DNA of 64,000 nucleotides from a bacterium (GTDB taxonomy: Bacteria; Zhuqueibacterota; Zhuqueibacteria; Residuimicrobiales; Krinioviventaceae): contig JAKQIY010000028.1 of the NCBI GenBank assembly GCA_029561455.1, positions 1-64,000 on the forward strand. Direction: 5' to 3'. The position numbers were made by a program, and so were the translations under genes. Below the pieces are notes generated by a model. It worked only from the letters and a program-made list of their open reading frames with translations. It was not told the origin of the DNA and ran no database searches. Position 1 is the first letter of the stretch. Each line of letters starts with the position of its first letter. This document shows, in pieces, positions 1,969 to 32,519 of this stretch.

Positions 1969-2043
1969 AAAAATCACCCCGTAAACAAGGATGATAGAGT
2001 TAACCTTCATATCAATTAAAAACAGAGAGAATTGGATTTCGAT

Positions 2044-2457
2044 ATGCCCATCGCCTATATCACCCGTCACGTTCATTTCAGCGCTTCACACCGGCTGCAC
2101 AATCCCGGACTGTCCGCCGCCGAGAATGAACAAATTTACGGCTTGTGCAACAACGCCAACGGGTACGGGCATAATTATGAGCTGTATGTGACCATCAAAG
2201 GTGAACCGGACCCGCGTACCGGCATGATCATGGATTTGAAAGAGTTAAAAACCATTATCAACCGGGAAATCGTCAAACCCATGGATCACAAGCATCTTAA
2301 CGATGATGTTGATTTTTTGGCCGGGATCATTCCCACCGCCGAAAACCTGGCTATAGCGATCTGGCAAAGATTAAAAGATAAAATCCCGCATGGCGAGTTG
2401 TACAAAGTAAAATTATATGAAACACCCCGCAATTTTGCAATTTACAAAGGAGAATAG
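2044..2457 (+). CDS. 6-pyruvoyl-tetrahydropterin synthase family protein
   Basis: A 137-residue protein that aligns along its length with the PTPS/QueD family and closely resembles the animal PTPS pattern (SASH motif, CNN motif, LYKVKLYET and YKGE near the end). These enzymes convert dihydroneopterin triphosphate, the FolE product, to 6-pyruvoyl- or 6-carboxy-tetrahydropterin. Zinc ligands H16 and H43 and the catalytic C35 and D81-H82 are present. The first His of the usual HGH ligand pair is Tyr41 here (GYGHNY). ATG 2044 is preferred; a TTG at 2032 would add four residues. The stop codon is 1 nt before the folE start, so the two are probably translationally coupled. Confidence 0.85.
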
Positions 2458-2458
2458 C

Positions 2459-3022
2459 GTGGCAAAACCAATCCATGAATCGGTAAAAGAAATACTTCAG
2501 GAAATTGGCGAAAACCCGGAACGCGAGGGGCTGCTGAAAACTCCCCTGCGCGTAGAAAAAGCTTACCATTTCCTCACCCGCGGCTACCAAATGGATATTG
2601 ATTCTGTGGTAAACAATGCCATCTTTACGGAAGATTGCGAAGAAATGGTGCTGGTGCGGAATATCGAGTTCTACAGTCTCTGCGAACACCACATGCTGCC
2701 GTTTTTCGGCAAGTGCCATGTTGCGTACCTGCCCAAAGGCAAGATCATCGGCCTGAGCAAGATCCCCCGCATTGTGGATATGTATGCCCGACGTTTACAG
2801 GTGCAGGAACGTATGACCCGGCAGATTGCGGAAACTATAAATAATATTCTATCACCCTATGGAGTTGCAGTAATTGTCGAGGGCCGGCATTTATGTATGA
2901 TGATGCGCGGCGTGGAAAAACAAAACAGTCTGGTTACTTCCAGCGCCATGCTGGGTGAATTTAAAAACGACCGCGCCACCCGTATGGAGCTACTGAAACT
3001 GCTGCACACAAAAACAGATTAA
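2459..3022 (+). CDS. folE: GTP cyclohydrolase I
   Basis: A 187-residue protein of the normal FolE length. It converts GTP to 7,8-dihydroneopterin triphosphate, the entry step to folate and biopterin-type cofactors. Zinc and catalytic residues are visible: C75 and H77-H78 in [12 protein letters not shown], and C146 in [11 protein letters not shown]. The GTG at 2459 is chosen because AAAGGAG (2446-2452), which sits inside the end of the upstream gene, is 6 nt before it, and the product then begins where other FolE proteins do. Its place between a PTPS-like gene and an SDR gene suggests tetrahydrobiopterin-like chemistry more than folate alone. Confidence 0.95.
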
Positions 3023-3034
3023 CGGAAAGTTACA

Positions 3035-3754
3035 ATGAAAACTGGAAAATTATCGGAAAAAATAATCTGGATCACCGGCAGCGGCCGGGGCATCGGCAAG
3101 GCAGCCGCGCTTGCCCTGGCGGAGTGCGGCGCGCGGGTGGTATTGTGCGCCCGTAGCTCCGGAGAGATCAACGAAACCGCCACCGAAATTCACACCATCG
3201 GTGGACAGGTGCTGGCTATTCCCTGTAATGTATCCGATCAAAACCAGGTGGACGCCCTGGTCAACCGGGTGAAACAGCAATGGGGACCGGTGGATATTCT
3301 CATCAACAACGCCGGTGTGGCGGCATTCAAAAAAATCGTCAATACCACAGTGCAGGATTGGGACGCCATGCTGGACAGCAATCTCAAAGCCGCGTTTTTA
3401 TGCAGCCAGGCAGTTTTACCAGATATGCTGGAAAAAGGCGCGGGACATATTATTAATGTTGTTTCTGTGGCCGGGAAACAACCCTATTATAACTGCGGCG
3501 CCTATTGCGCGTCCAAATACGGCTTGCTTGGCTTTACCGAGGTGTTGCGCATGGAAACCCGTAAACACGGTATAATGGTTACCGCCTTTCTGCCCGGCGC
3601 CACCGATACAACCTTGTGGGGCAGCGCCAATGTCGACCGTACTAAAATGATGACCACCGCGCAGGTTGCACAGGGACTGGTCAATATCTGCGCGAGTGAA
3701 CCGGGGTGTATGACCGAACAGGTAATTATGCGGCCGATCGGCGGGGATCTATAA
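3035..3754 (+). CDS. Short-chain dehydrogenase/reductase, possible sepiapterin-reductase role
   Basis: A 239-residue classical SDR oxidoreductase. The NAD(P)-binding motif TGSGRGIG is at 14-21, NNAG at 91-94, catalytic Ser144, Tyr157 and Lys161 (YCASK). Many SDRs share this fold, so the substrate is not fixed by sequence. Its start is 12 nt after folE in a PTPS-folE-SDR order, and the last steps to tetrahydrobiopterin in other organisms are carried out by an SDR (sepiapterin reductase). Pterin reduction is therefore the leading inference. A 3-oxoacyl-ACP-reductase-like activity is the main alternative. Confidence 0.85.
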   Translation: MKTGKLSEKIIWITGSGRGIGKAAALALAECGARVVLCARSSGEINETATEIHTIGGQVLAIPCNVSDQNQVDALVNRVKQQWGPVDILINNAGVAAFKKIVNTTVQDWDAMLDSNLKAAFLCSQAVLPDMLEKGAGHIINVVSVAGKQPYYNCGAYCASKYGLLGFTEVLRMETRKHGIMVTAFLPGATDTTLWGSANVDRTKMMTTAQVAQGLVNICASEPGCMTEQVIMRPIGGDL

Positions 3755-26910: not shown

Positions 26911-27942
26911 TCAACGCAACAGCAGCATTTTACCGGTAGCGGTGTTACCGTTTGCGCCGGATAACCGGTAGAAATAGACGCCCGAAGCCAGTTCAGCCGC
27001 ATCGAATCTGATCTCATAATTGCCCAGTTCCCTTACCTGCATGGAGCGTACTAGATGTCCCAGTGCATCATACACATTTAACTGCACGGTTTCTGTCCGG
27101 TGCAGAGTGAATGGAATGACCGAATTATTGTTAAACGGATTGGGATAATTAGCCGCCAGGGAAAAAGAGACCGGCGCTATTTCCCGGCGCGAATTTTCAG
27201 CAATACCCACCGCTCCGGGGGTGTAGACTGCCTTGAACCTGTACCCGCCCATATCCTGCAACAGATCATCAGCCGTGGTAATTGTCGAATCGGGGACATG
27301 CAGCGCGCCGCTGGAACCGTCGATTGAGCCATAACCGACATAGTCCAGTGTAGAGGCGCTGTCCGGGGCATTGGCAATGGGAATGTTCATTTCCCAGATC
27401 GTCGAGGGCTGGCCGCGATAGAAAGAGTAATTGTGATACTCGTTAAAATCAAAGGACTTGTTGGCCTCGATGCGGCAGGTGTACGTTCCGCCCGGTAAAT
27501 CCGGACACTGCCAGGTGATTGTTTGCACGCTCGTATTGGGCGTAGCCATAGACACCGCGTCGATGTCATTCGGATACCCTGGCTGGTTCGACGCCGGGGG
27601 ATAATAATTGATTACGCCAAAAGTCGTGTCGATCACACCGCGCTTATAGCTCCACACCGGCAGGGCATTCAGGCGATTGCCGTCGCCCGAATCGATATCG
27701 GGACTGGCGGTGCGGTTGCCGCCGCCGCGCCGGCCGATAAAATTGGTGAGGAACGCTGTGCCGACATACTGTCCCTCAGCATTTTCCACCCAGATAGCGA
27801 ACTGGGTAATGTTATCATTGGGCTGAAAGATAAAATCAATCGACCCGGAAGCAGCAGCCGGGGAAATGTCGGGGAAAACAAAGCAGGCAATAATTATCAG
27901 TATCAATACATGGTACAAAATTATTTGCTTATTTTTTTTCAT
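26911..27942 (-). CDS. Secreted DUF2271-like protein with T9SS sorting domain
   Basis: A 343-residue exported protein. It has a Sec signal (ILYHVLILIIIACFVFP) and a central domain (about 35-225) resembling DUF2271 (FAIWVENAEGQYVGTAFLT, LPGGTYTCRIEANKS). The C-terminal domain (about 260-343) is a type IX sorting signal: SLAANYPNPFNNNS, a VYDALGHLVR strand and a GVYFYRL ending. It should cross the inner membrane by Sec and the outer membrane by T9SS. Substrate or partner is unknown. It lies just downstream of a DUF5020 outer-membrane-type gene (18-nt gap). Confidence 0.85.
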   Translation of the reverse strand: MKKNKQIILYHVLILIIIACFVFPDISPAAASGSIDFIFQPNDNITQFAIWVENAEGQYVGTAFLTNFIGRRGGGNRTASPDIDSGDGNRLNALPVWSYKRGVIDTTFGVINYYPPASNQPGYPNDIDAVSMATPNTSVQTITWQCPDLPGGTYTCRIEANKSFDFNEYHNYSFYRGQPSTIWEMNIPIANAPDSASTLDYVGYGSIDGSSGALHVPDSTITTADDLLQDMGGYRFKAVYTPGAVGIAENSRREIAPVSFSLAANYPNPFNNNSVIPFTLHRTETVQLNVYDALGHLVRSMQVRELGNYEIRFDAAELASGVYFYRLSGANGNTATGKMLLLR

Positions 27943-27960: not shown

Positions 27961-28677
27961 TTAATAATTATACTTGATCGCCAGCGTGGGGTACACCAGC
28001 CAGCCATCCGAGTATGAATAGACATGATAGAACAGCTTGATCTCCGTGCCTATAGCCAACAGTTTGTTGATATTGTACCAGATTTGCGGTTCGCTCAGGA
28101 ACAGCAATTTCTTGCCGGTTTGTCCGGCGGTCCAGGGGTCGCCATGATCTTTGTTTTCCGTCCACAACACCAGGTGACCAAGCAAACTGATCTTATTCCG
28201 CAGGAAATTTTGTCCCCAATACAGCGAGTATTGCAGATCATGGCTTCCTTGTGTAAAGTTGTTATAGCGGTACACCAGGTACGTGCTCCACCAGGCATTG
28301 CCCAACTGAAAGGGATACGCCGCGCCGACCATATAGGCGTTATCGATGGCATAGCCATACCCGGATTTGCTGTCCACCCCGAGTCCGCCGGAATATTCGA
28401 GGTGCAGAAACGCCGGGAAGTCCCAAAATTTAAAGGTATGGGATATTTGTGTGAACAGGTTGCCGGGATTGTTATGCGCGCCCTTGAAATCCACATCCAT
28501 TTTCATAAACATCGAGCCATACGATTCCAGCCTGAATGTTTCGAATGATAAAGTGGTATAATCCCTGCTATTATTATCCGGGTCTATGGAATGGCGAAAA
28601 TCATTATGTAACTGTAAATTCTGGGCGAATACTGATGTTGTTATTAATAACAGCGCTATCCAAAAACAGTATTTCAT
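27961..28677 (-). CDS. DUF5020-family outer-membrane beta-barrel-like protein
   Basis: A 238-residue protein with a Sec signal (MKYCFWIALLLITTSVFAQ) and alternating hydrophobic/aromatic strands ending in LAIKYNY, as in outer-membrane barrels. The WSTYLVYRYN and LHLEYSGGLG segments match DUF5020, which is distantly similar to Tsx-type nucleoside channels. A role in passive uptake of small solutes is possible but not shown. It is transcribed just before the DUF2271-like exported protein, with an 18-nt gap. Confidence 0.75.
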   Translation of the reverse strand: MKYCFWIALLLITTSVFAQNLQLHNDFRHSIDPDNNSRDYTTLSFETFRLESYGSMFMKMDVDFKGAHNNPGNLFTQISHTFKFWDFPAFLHLEYSGGLGVDSKSGYGYAIDNAYMVGAAYPFQLGNAWWSTYLVYRYNNFTQGSHDLQYSLYWGQNFLRNKISLLGHLVLWTENKDHGDPWTAGQTGKKLLFLSEPQIWYNINKLLAIGTEIKLFYHVYSYSDGWLVYPTLAIKYNY

Positions 28678-29427: not shown

Positions 29428-30891
29428 CTATATAACCTTTACATACCGGTTATTTTTCAACTGATAACCTTCGGCATGTAAAACCGCCATGGCATACATG
29501 GCGCATTCAAAACGGCGGCGATAGGTATCGCAAATCTCCTGCGGCTGCTTGTCCAGCGAGCCATGATATTCTATCGGCAGGAACACGCAAGAGCCGCCGC
29601 ACAGGTATCTTCCCCAGCAGTGGCTGCATTCTTCTTTACTGTCCACCGTGTTATTATAAAATTTATCGCGGATCGCTTCATTGATCTCGCCATCGAACAC
29701 ATTGCCCAGGTAATACTCTTTCATATCGATAAAACGCATGCACGGATAAAGGGAGCCATCCACCGCCACCGTCAGATACCCCTTGCCGGCGCCGCAGGCA
29801 TCGTTCTTGATTTTTGGATTCCATAACCGCGAAACCGCATGGGCAAAGGGATTCAAATTATAAACTTCGCCGTTCCTAGCCCTGCGAATGTACTCTTCAG
29901 CCACGTCATACAGTTGACTGTTGATTTCCTGCAAATCCACCGCTGTATTTGAGGCCGTGCCGGAACAGCCTTCAACCCCGGTCGATTCGGCTATAAACAC
30001 ACTGGCAAAGCCGACTTCATCGATGAGGTGTTTGGCCACTTCAAGGAGATGCACATCGTTGCGGCCAATAGTAGCCCGGGCATTGATCTTTTTCCTTTTC
30101 GCGATTAACCGTTTCACATTATCAATGATCGCGGCATAAGAGCCCTCGCCATTGGCTAATTTGCGGTAACGATCCTGTATTTCCGGGGGGCCGTCAATGC
30201 TCACCTGCACGCCGATTTGATGTTCATCACAAAAATCAAGACGTTGTTTGGTTAATAATAAACCATTGGTGGGTAAGCTCATGCCGATCTCGAACCCGGT
30301 TTTTTCTTTCACCTCTTCCCGGTAAGCAACCAATTTTCTGATCACCGGCATATTCATCAAAGGTTCACCGCCAAATAATTCTAACCGGACTTTTTTCTTT
30401 TTCATATCCGGGTTGGCTTTGGCGATCAGAAAATCGACCGTAGCTTTGGCCGTTTTCCAGTCCATATAGCGGCGGTCTTTTCTGTACAGCCCCTGATTGG
30501 CAAAACAATAAGAACATCTGAAATTGCAGTCGTGACAAAGATTAACAACCAGTGCGCTCATATAGCGATCACGATGACAACTGGGGGGTTTCACTGTGCC
30601 TTGCTGAGATATTAATTCGGAAGAAATCAACAAGCCGATATTTTTTAACGCTTCAAAATCCTCCCGAACTTGAGCAATTCCATATAAATCGCACAGTTTC
30701 GTCAATTGCTGTGGGTTTTTGCCTCCGCTAAAAAACTCAATAAATTGCCTGACATGCTCCTCGTGAATAACATAAACCCCCATTTGTTTGACGTTATAAA
30801 AAATTGTATATCCCCCCATTTGAAAATAATGATTTTCTGCAAGTTCGTACTTTTGTAGTGTTTCAAACACATTGGCTTGCGTCAACTCCAT
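29428..30891 (-). CDS. Radical SAM/SPASM peptide-modifying maturase
   Basis: A 487-residue radical SAM enzyme. An N-terminal domain (about 20-92) has the PqqD-like winged-helix pattern used to recognise leader peptides. The SAM cluster motif is C122-x3-C126-x2-C129 (CNFRCSYC), with GGEP at 174-177. The SPASM region carries C366, C384, C422-x2-C425-x5-C431-x3-C435 and C454, the ligand pattern for two extra iron-sulfur clusters. Relatives (SCIFF/ranthipeptide maturases, QhpD) crosslink Cys to other residues by thioether bonds. It has no signal peptide. The Cys-rich protein gene ends 19 nt upstream and is the obvious substrate. Confidence 0.92.
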   Translation of the reverse strand: MELTQANVFETLQKYELAENHYFQMGGYTIFYNVKQMGVYVIHEEHVRQFIEFFSGGKNPQQLTKLCDLYGIAQVREDFEALKNIGLLISSELISQQGTVKPPSCHRDRYMSALVVNLCHDCNFRCSYCFANQGLYRKDRRYMDWKTAKATVDFLIAKANPDMKKKKVRLELFGGEPLMNMPVIRKLVAYREEVKEKTGFEIGMSLPTNGLLLTKQRLDFCDEHQIGVQVSIDGPPEIQDRYRKLANGEGSYAAIIDNVKRLIAKRKKINARATIGRNDVHLLEVAKHLIDEVGFASVFIAESTGVEGCSGTASNTAVDLQEINSQLYDVAEEYIRRARNGEVYNLNPFAHAVSRLWNPKIKNDACGAGKGYLTVAVDGSLYPCMRFIDMKEYYLGNVFDGEINEAIRDKFYNNTVDSKEECSHCWGRYLCGGSCVFLPIEYHGSLDKQPQEICDTYRRRFECAMYAMAVLHAEGYQLKNNRYVKVI

Positions 30892-30910
30892 AAATTCCTT
30901 TCCAATCGTC

Positions 30911-32059
30911 TTAGCGGATATAACTCAATTTCTGCATAGCCGTTAATGTCTGTCCGTTTTCATAGCGAACGCGGCAGAAATAGGCGCCGGTAGTGACTGC
31001 AGCGCCGCTGTTGTTGGTGGCATCCCAGGTCAGGGGATGAGTACCGGCCGTGATAGCGCCACTCATTAAAGTTTTAACTATTCTGCCGTTTATATCATAA
31101 ATCTCAACCGTGATATGACCGTTGTCGGGAACTGTAATTGTCATACTGGTTTGCGAATTGAACGGATTGGGATAATTGGTCGACAGACGGAATCTGGTTG
31201 GCGATGCCTGTACATCGCTGGACAATGCTTTGCATTCAAGCGGGCCGCGGGTTATGGTTTCGCCATTAATATCCACATCTTCCAGCAAGTACCAATAAGT
31301 CGTTGCGTTATCGACTGTGGAATCTATATATTCATATTCATGCGCCACGGCAGATGAACCGGCGCCCGGGATAATTTTGCCATTCACCGGCTGATAGGGA
31401 CCCTTTTTATCCAATGCCCGGAACAGGAAAAAGCCCAGATTATTAACTTCCGCCTCAGTTCGCCAATACAATAAAACACTATTCTTTTTGCGTGTACAGT
31501 CAAATATGTTTAAAGTAACAGGCAACGAAGGATCGTCGACCACACAGGTTTCACAGTCAACACAAACTTCACAATCAACACAGACTTCACAGCTCAAACA
31601 AATGTCGCAAGAATCACAATAACCGTCACAGGCTTCACAACTGACGCAACTTTCACAGTCCACGCAGCCATCACAAATATCACAACCGGAGTGGCAGACA
31701 TCGCAATAACCATCACAGGTTTCGCAGAAAAAACAGCTCTCACAACCAAGACAAATAAGACAACCCTCACAATCTTCACAGACTTCACAGTAACCGTCAC
31801 AAACTTCACAACCGTCGCATACTTCACAGATATTACAATAGCCATCACAACCATCACAGGTTTGACAATAGGTATTGCATTCGGCGCAGGCCGGCGAGTC
31901 GGCTTTTTTCAGCGCTTCCGGTTTGTTGATCAAGGTAATTTTCGGTTTTTGATAAGAGCAGCAATTACCGGCCGCCGGGTTGTTCACCCTGGTAAGCCCA
32001 TTAAAAGTTTGATCATTGATTTGGGCCTGGCCTTTAATATTTTTTTCAGGAGTAGACAT
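30911..32059 (-). CDS. Cys-array protein with T9SS sorting domain, putative modified-peptide precursor
   Basis: A 382-residue protein in four parts. Residues 1-57 form a polar leader-like segment without a Sec signal. Residues 58-172 hold 37 cysteines spaced three apart, with six four-residue steps (CNTYC, CDGYC four times, CHSGC); the intervening residues are mostly Asp, Glu, Gly, Val and Ile. Residues about 180-285 are a fibronectin-III-like domain of the type that precedes sorting signals. Residues about 295-382 are a T9SS domain (STNYPNPFNSQ, IYDINGRIV, GAYFCRVRY). ATG 32059 has GGAG 8 nt upstream; an in-frame stop lies 11 codons further up, so no hidden signal peptide is possible. Flanking genes encode a PqqD-like protein and a radical SAM maturase. 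Confidence 0.9.
   Translation of the reverse strand: MSTPEKNIKGQAQINDQTFNGLTRVNNPAAGNCCSYQKPKITLINKPEALKKADSPACAECNTYCQTCDGCDGYCNICEVCDGCEVCDGYCEVCEDCEGCLICLGCESCFFCETCDGYCDVCHSGCDICDGCVDCESCVSCEACDGYCDSCDICLSCEVCVDCEVCVDCETCVVDDPSLPVTLNIFDCTRKKNSVLLYWRTEAEVNNLGFFLFRALDKKGPYQPVNGKIIPGAGSSAVAHEYEYIDSTVDNATTYWYLLEDVDINGETITRGPLECKALSSDVQASPTRFRLSTNYPNPFNSQTSMTITVPDNGHITVEIYDINGRIVKTLMSGAITAGTHPLTWDATNNSGAAVTTGAYFCRVRYENGQTLTAMQKLSYIR
31544..31888 (-). repeat. Period-9/period-12 coding repeat encoding the Cys array
   Basis: This segment encodes residues 58-172 of the Cys-array protein. On the plus strand it reads as a long run of ACAxxxTTCACA-like words. The CxxC steps give a 9-nt period and the CxxxC steps a 12-nt period. 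Codons vary between units, so the array is not a recent simple-sequence expansion. Confidence 0.8.
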
Positions 32060-32084
32060 GGCTTGATCTCCGTAATATGCTTTT

Positions 32085-32519
32085 TTAATTCAAAAATTCA
32101 ATCAGATTTAAGGTCTTTAATGTATGGACAAAATTATTAATGTCGCTCTCGACAACTGCCGGCGTTTTTTTATATTTTAAAGCCAGGGCGTCAGTCATCA
32201 TCTCCAGGCTATGACGGCCGTTGCAGAGATTCCAGAGAAAAGAGCCTTCCGAGTTTAATAAATATTTTTTTTCTTTAAATGCAAGGGTAGAAGAAACAAT
32301 AATATGATCTTGTTTAGATTGATTTGTAACTATTGCTTTCTTTTGCCTGGGACGCAGTGTTTTAAACGTTTTATCCCCGTTTTGCTGCAAGGCTGAAAAG
32401 ACATTCTGCGGACGAATGATATCCAGAACTCCACCGGCCAGAATTACTGCGACGCCGGCTTTATTAGTAAGATTTAAAAAATCCCGCCGGCTCACGTTTT
32501 TATCAAGTTTCTTGCCCAT
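32085..32519 (-). CDS. Tat-signal protein with PqqD-like (RRE) domain
   Basis: A 144-residue protein. Residues 10-15 (SRRDFL) are a twin-arginine motif, followed by a weakly hydrophobic stretch (AGVAVILAGGVLDII) and a plausible signal-peptidase site after VFSA (about 43). Residues about 70-144 match the PqqD family, including YLLNSEGSFLWNLCNGRHS and a final LKTLNLIEFL. PqqD-like domains bind RiPP leader peptides and normally stay in the cytoplasm, so a Tat signal is unusual. AAGGAG with 7-nt spacing supports the start. It is first in the operon with the Cys-array protein (25-nt gap) and the radical SAM maturase. Confidence 0.85.
   Translation of the reverse strand: MGKKLDKNVSRRDFLNLTNKAGVAVILAGGVLDIIRPQNVFSALQQNGDKTFKTLRPRQKKAIVTNQSKQDHIIVSSTLAFKEKKYLLNSEGSFLWNLCNGRHSLEMMTDALALKYKKTPAVVESDINNFVHTLKTLNLIEFLN

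Follow-up and report, generated by a model that had tools for sequence, protein, structure and literature searches.

We tentatively propose that a compact, operon-like unit of three minus-strand genes, found by open reading frame (ORF) analysis of the window (the whole 64,000-nucleotide stretch of DNA studied here), is a self-contained operon for a surface protein that would be modified by a radical SAM enzyme and exported on a PqqD-family protein with a twin-arginine (Tat) signal. The genes encode this protein, here named Tat-PqqD, a Cys-array protein with a tail for the type IX secretion system (T9SS), and a radical SAM/SPASM maturase (Table 1). The gaps between them are 25 nt (Tat-PqqD/array) and 19 nt (array/maturase), and every start is preceded by a Shine-Dalgarno-like sequence (AAGGAG, GGAG and AAAGGA, respectively). 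The flanks appear unrelated, with a small membrane protein about 300 nt downstream and an upstream intergenic region of about 500 nt or more. Ordinary neighbour genes in the window encode, at 26911-27942, a protein that has a Sec signal, a T9SS tail and a weak DUF2271 match and, at 27961-28677, a DUF5020 protein. We also considered that Tat-PqqD and the array protein were one fusion split by a sequencing error, and rejected this, because the match to the PqqD profile comes to a natural end and the array gene is preceded by a ribosome site of its own. The initial annotation had described three tightly spaced genes, for a PqqD-like domain with a Tat signal, a 382-residue Cys-array protein with a T9SS domain, and a radical SAM/SPASM enzyme with a PqqD-like domain of its own at the N terminus; this description held throughout.

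Table 1. Features of the three-gene unit and of related loci (window positions unless a locus is named).
Feature	Location	Strand	Basis
Tat-PqqD, 144 aa	32085..32519	-	ORF; N-terminal twin-arginine signal, C-terminal PqqD domain; PF05402 42.5 bits
Predicted Tat signal, residues 1-42	32394..32519	-	SRRDFL, hydrophobic stretch, hydropathy 2.75; TIGR01409 below cut-off
PqqD domain, residues 85-140	32100..32267	-	PF05402, profile positions 11-67
Cys-array protein, 382 aa	30911..32059	-	ORF without own export signal; upstream in-frame TGA; N-terminal hydropathy 0.03
Putative leader, residues 1-57	31889..32059	-	Placed before the array; candidate leader role
Cys array, residues 58-172	31544..31888	-	37 Cys, mostly every third residue, C-[DE]-x-C type
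T9SS type A sorting domain, residues 296-371	30947..31174	-	PF18962 and TIGR04183 over cut-off; matched in whole-genome search
Radical SAM/SPASM maturase, 487 aa	29428..30891	-	PF04055 and PF13186 over cut-off
N-terminal RRE/PqqD-like domain, residues 20-84	30640..30834	-	Predicted structure; CteB alignment starts at residue 18
Radical SAM CxxxCxYC motif, residues 122-129	30505..30528	-	Invariant in maturase alignment
SPASM domain, residues 366-426	29614..29796	-	PF13186 31.6 bits
Tat-type T9SS-tailed proteins, same genome	G000:C82:45468 (L424 463-1875); G000:C23:47361 (L396); G000:C29:175770 (L423)
Phage array and maturase loci	L026 2710-5104; L036 1915-3579; L042 1083-5287; L063 876-5119
Phage array and maturase loci, continued	L064 2-5089; L078 869-5110; L135 5293-10676

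The protein of the first gene (MGKKLDKNVSRRDFLNLTNKAGVAVILAGGVLDII) begins with a textbook twin-arginine motif, SRRDFL, and a hydrophobic stretch, with a possible cleavage after VFS. The generic Tat model TIGR01409 gave 13.7 bits, slightly below its cut-off of 16.7, which leaves motif and hydropathy as the basis of the Tat call. After a linker of about 40 residues comes the PqqD domain, which scored 42.5 bits with PF05402 against a gathering cut-off of 23.4 and places the protein in the family. A single-sequence structure model reached a pLDDT of 43, too low to be informative. No ortholog of Tat-PqqD was found in the 81 other genomes of the phylum, nor any relative among the plasmids searched. 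PqqD-family domains are common in the phylum (61 of the 81 genomes), and we read 91 other ORFs of the family for a twin-arginine motif and hydrophobic stretch ahead of the domain. None had such a signal, a few of the 91 being of doubtful frame and three RR motif matches being judged not to be signals; the tag is thus specific to this locus. Many of the 91 resemble two small Tat-less PqqD-family proteins that, in two genomes, adjoin a gene resembling an OPT-type (oligopeptide) transporter, a label given by eye only (L002 1489-1827, with 2006-3094; L006 37-1206, with 1537-1893). To our knowledge, PqqD acts in the cytoplasm in the known systems, and we found no description of a PqqD with a Tat signal in the open-access literature.

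The array protein begins with 57 Cys-poor residues, followed by the Cys array, a linker and, at its end, a T9SS type A tail. Of its 42 Cys residues, 37 lie at 3- or 4-residue spacing within the array. Seven matches to a 7-Cys pattern were found in the window, all inside the array gene, and 100 dinucleotide shuffles gave none, so chance does not give the array. The tail passed both curated cut-offs (PF18962, 28.7 bits versus 27; TIGR04183, 35.2 versus 23), and in the genome-wide search its 39.6 bits were close to the low end of the matches listed. The highest N-terminal hydropathy is 0.03, and no inner-membrane signal of the kind sought in T9SS cargo was found. As an in-frame TGA lies 11 codons upstream of the ATG, a longer form of the protein was ruled out; the earlier claim that a Sec signal is lacking and that a stop precludes an extended form is therefore confirmed.

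This lack is anomalous in its genomic context. The genome encodes TatC (E 1.2e-72) and the T9SS machinery, represented by SprA (897.5 bits summed over pieces), together with at least 150 T9SS tails (150 of 303 candidates scored). When 48 cargo starts were read, 46 carried their own Sec- or Tat-type signal, called by hydropathy and motif rather than by a trained predictor: 42 exceeded the Sec hydropathy threshold, one was Sec-like by eye and three were Tat-type (SRRDFI, SRRKFL and NRREFI, in the order of Table 1). The two starts without a call lie near a contig end in one case and have an uncertain start in the other. These counts support the view that T9SS cargo needs a separate route across the inner membrane, as initially annotated. 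A review of T9SS gives Sec as the cargo entry route (PMC5445135). The three Tat-type starts make traffic from Tat to T9SS plausible here, and their motifs suggest that Tat can feed T9SS in this genome.

Both Radical_SAM (PF04055) and SPASM (PF13186) scored over their cut-offs in the maturase. In the AlphaFold model (pLDDT 78.8 overall, about 39-82 across residues 20-84), the N-terminal domain has three strands (20-25, 28-33, 38-43) and three helices (44-54, 64-69, 72-84), which, as modelled, is the RRE topology. The best fold match was CteB (5wgg; TM 0.84 to the target), which carries an RRE itself, and identity to CteB/SCIFF is about 27-29%. This six-cysteine thioether peptide system, with the closest solved structure (N-terminal RRE, radical SAM core and SPASM), also gave the best NCBIfam score, SCIFF 275 bits, followed by nif11 267, PapB 258 and QhpD 256 bits. 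All are under the equivalog cut-offs (for SCIFF, TIGR03974, 274.9 versus 425 required; for PapB, NF047865, 258.4 versus 340), so the maturase is placed in none of these families. SCIFF differs further in being about 45 residues long and without surface sorting, and no small SCIFF-type peptide with six Cys in 45 residues was found next to the maturase, which only the 382-residue array protein adjoins. In a tree of 37 maturases, the window maturase groups with the RRE-bearing SCIFF/QhpD/nif11 types (support 96/90); a search of 39 relatives at E <= 1e-30 gave no ortholog.

Family, fold and motif evidence together support the earlier claim that the maturase cross-links the array, and we consider it very probable that the array is modified by this enzyme. 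In CX3D/E motifs, PapB joins the Cys to the Asp/Glu, and it also accepts spacers of 0-6 residues (PMC9413430). Repeated Cys-x3-Asp/Glu, the mark of PapB substrates, is present in the array protein: D or E stands at +4 of 19 of the 37 array Cys versus 10.7 expected (p = 2e-4), a statistic that cannot tell a requirement at +4 from a general acidic preference or phase just after Cys. The +1 position, where 23 of the 37 Cys are followed by D or E, is enriched as well and shares the phase of +4, and +7 is enriched because it lies in that phase too. Judging from these residue patterns, a Cys to Asp/Glu thioether is the linkage we favour by a little. The PapA/PapB pair (freyrasin-type ranthipeptide) is alike in its radical SAM/SPASM maturase of similar core and its Cys-x3-Asp/Glu-rich substrate. 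It differs in that the motifs of PapA, six in number, lie in a short peptide, whereas here 37 Cys lie in a large T9SS-tailed protein and a second, Tat-tagged PqqD is added, with the maturase short of the PapB cut-off.

Array and enzyme also occur as a pair elsewhere. A search of viral contigs with the 7-Cys pattern was dominated by repeats. Of the viral contigs obtained with the maturase pattern, several had a Cys-every-third array immediately 5' of a radical SAM/SPASM gene. In all, arrays beside PapB-like maturases were seen in about a dozen phage contigs (Table 1), which supports the array and the enzyme as a pair. A scan with six phage maturases, for all of which PapB was the best NCBIfam match (187-281 bits, under the cut-off of 340), gave 25 relatives, with strict arrays in eight loci and looser arrays in several more. 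L135 has a tape-measure gene and L026 a terminase gene, which gives the phage context. Phage arrays often make up the C-terminal portion of a tail-type protein, accompanied by a second array ORF, and the PapB-like maturases often have a Cys-rich N terminus of their own. Unlike the window locus, these modules (L026, L036, L063, L064, L078, L135 and others) have arrays on tail-type proteins and maturases without an RRE, and no PqqD, Tat or T9SS parts were seen in them. The phage maturases fall outside the clade of the window maturase in the tree of 37, so the pairing seems to have arisen more than once. We found no description of phage Cys arrays in the open-access literature.

No second copy of the three-gene arrangement was found in the 81 other genomes of the phylum. 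No true mixed Cys array was found elsewhere in the phylum either: other 7-Cys matches look like simple DNA repeats, except for a short protein of a related genome (L251 3-341; G059:C95) with a Cys-Asn-Pro tandem repeat (CNPCNPCNP...) encoded by varied codons, which is a Cys-every-third array of another kind. Scanning the genome collection with just the maturase gave no matches. A second scan, with a composite query forcing conserved 8-mers, gave at least seven distant maturases, none with an array beside it among the matches listed.

For modification, exact linkage, leader binding by Tat-PqqD, co-transport and surface display, we infer the following steps. In the cytoplasm, the maturase (RRE, radical SAM and SPASM) would bind the N-terminal leader of the 382-residue protein and link the array through many thioether bridges, which would most likely join Cys to Asp/Glu at C-x3-[DE] in a PapB-like manner. 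Tat-PqqD would bind the same leader and, as the carrier of a hitch-hiker, take the cargo, already folded and cross-linked, through the Tat translocase. Once in the periplasm, the array protein would be passed to T9SS by its C-terminal sorting domain, and T9SS would display it on the cell surface. Display by T9SS is probable. Hitch-hiking, as modelled in the initial annotation, which is supported in part, is the best explanation of the export, on circumstantial evidence, and we treat it as a serious possibility; its strongest support is that a signal-less array protein is co-encoded with a Tat-tagged recognition domain in a genome where nearly all cargo has a signal of its own. Against it count the single locus, the sub-cut-off TIGR01409 score and the cytoplasmic action of PqqD in known systems.

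Other readings of these data were weighed. At the level of chemistry, the array might be a metal-binding, iron-sulfur or disulfide protein, with the maturase acting elsewhere or differently (for example, by a sactionine link or epimerisation). Metal sites typically show CxxC spacing, and with the maturase under every NCBIfam equivalog cut-off the family does not assign its chemistry. We consider this improbable, given that such arrays repeatedly adjoin PapB-like maturases in phage contigs, that the operon holds no other candidate substrate and that the maturase fold is CteB-like. At the level of export, Tat-PqqD might be a periplasmic helper, exported alone or anchored by its uncleaved signal, that binds the leader in the periplasm and aids hand-over to T9SS or leader removal, while the array protein uses an unrecognised inner-membrane route. 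The linker before the PqqD domain would suit such a role, as would the fact that Tat signals can serve as anchors, and the N terminus of Tat-PqqD has a weak Rieske-type Tat match (PF10399, 14.2 bits, under cut-off). Such a helper seems unlikely, as it leaves the cargo without the inner-membrane route that 46 of 48 other T9SS cargo starts have.

The modified array protein might instead stay in the cytoplasm or be freed on lysis, with a vestigial T9SS tail and an incidental Tat tag on PqqD. The missing export signal and the low rank of the tail among the genome's listed matches agree with this. We rate it as improbable, since the tail still passes two curated cut-offs, and a near-consensus Tat signal, absent from the 91 other PqqD-family ORFs, is unlikely by chance.

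Export by hitch-hiking on Tat-PqqD, the reading we prefer, has partial parallels. The hitch-hiking of signal-less partners through Tat is established, as for PaoABC (PMC4273604). In such complexes (hydrogenases, PaoABC), as proposed here, a signal-less partner crosses with a Tat-tagged one, but the known carriers are enzyme subunits and not a peptide-recognition domain. In the QhpC/QhpD system (quinohemoprotein amine dehydrogenase), a signal-less protein is likewise matured by a radical SAM enzyme before export. QhpC leaves through an ABC transporter of its own, together with a protease, and is not known to travel on a Tat-tagged PqqD or to be T9SS cargo. ABC genes adjoin a QhpC/QhpD-type cluster in one of our loci (L014).

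No paper joining ribosomally synthesized peptides, type IX secretion and radical SAM was found in the open-access literature, and, as far as we found, this export logic has been described neither for modified peptides nor for T9SS cargo. We put forward, still more cautiously than the operon itself, that a PqqD/RRE domain has been recruited as a Tat ferry for a folded, radical-SAM-cross-linked protein that is then displayed on the surface by T9SS. If true, this would be a new way of delivering an enzyme-modified protein to the cell surface, it would connect radical SAM cross-linking, Tat hitch-hiking and T9SS display, three pathways with no known point of contact, and it would offer a route for exporting rigid, cross-linked proteins. 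The genome suggests that Tat, besides Sec, can serve as an entry to T9SS, and the similar arrays on phage tails suggest cross-linked Cys rods as a wider building material.
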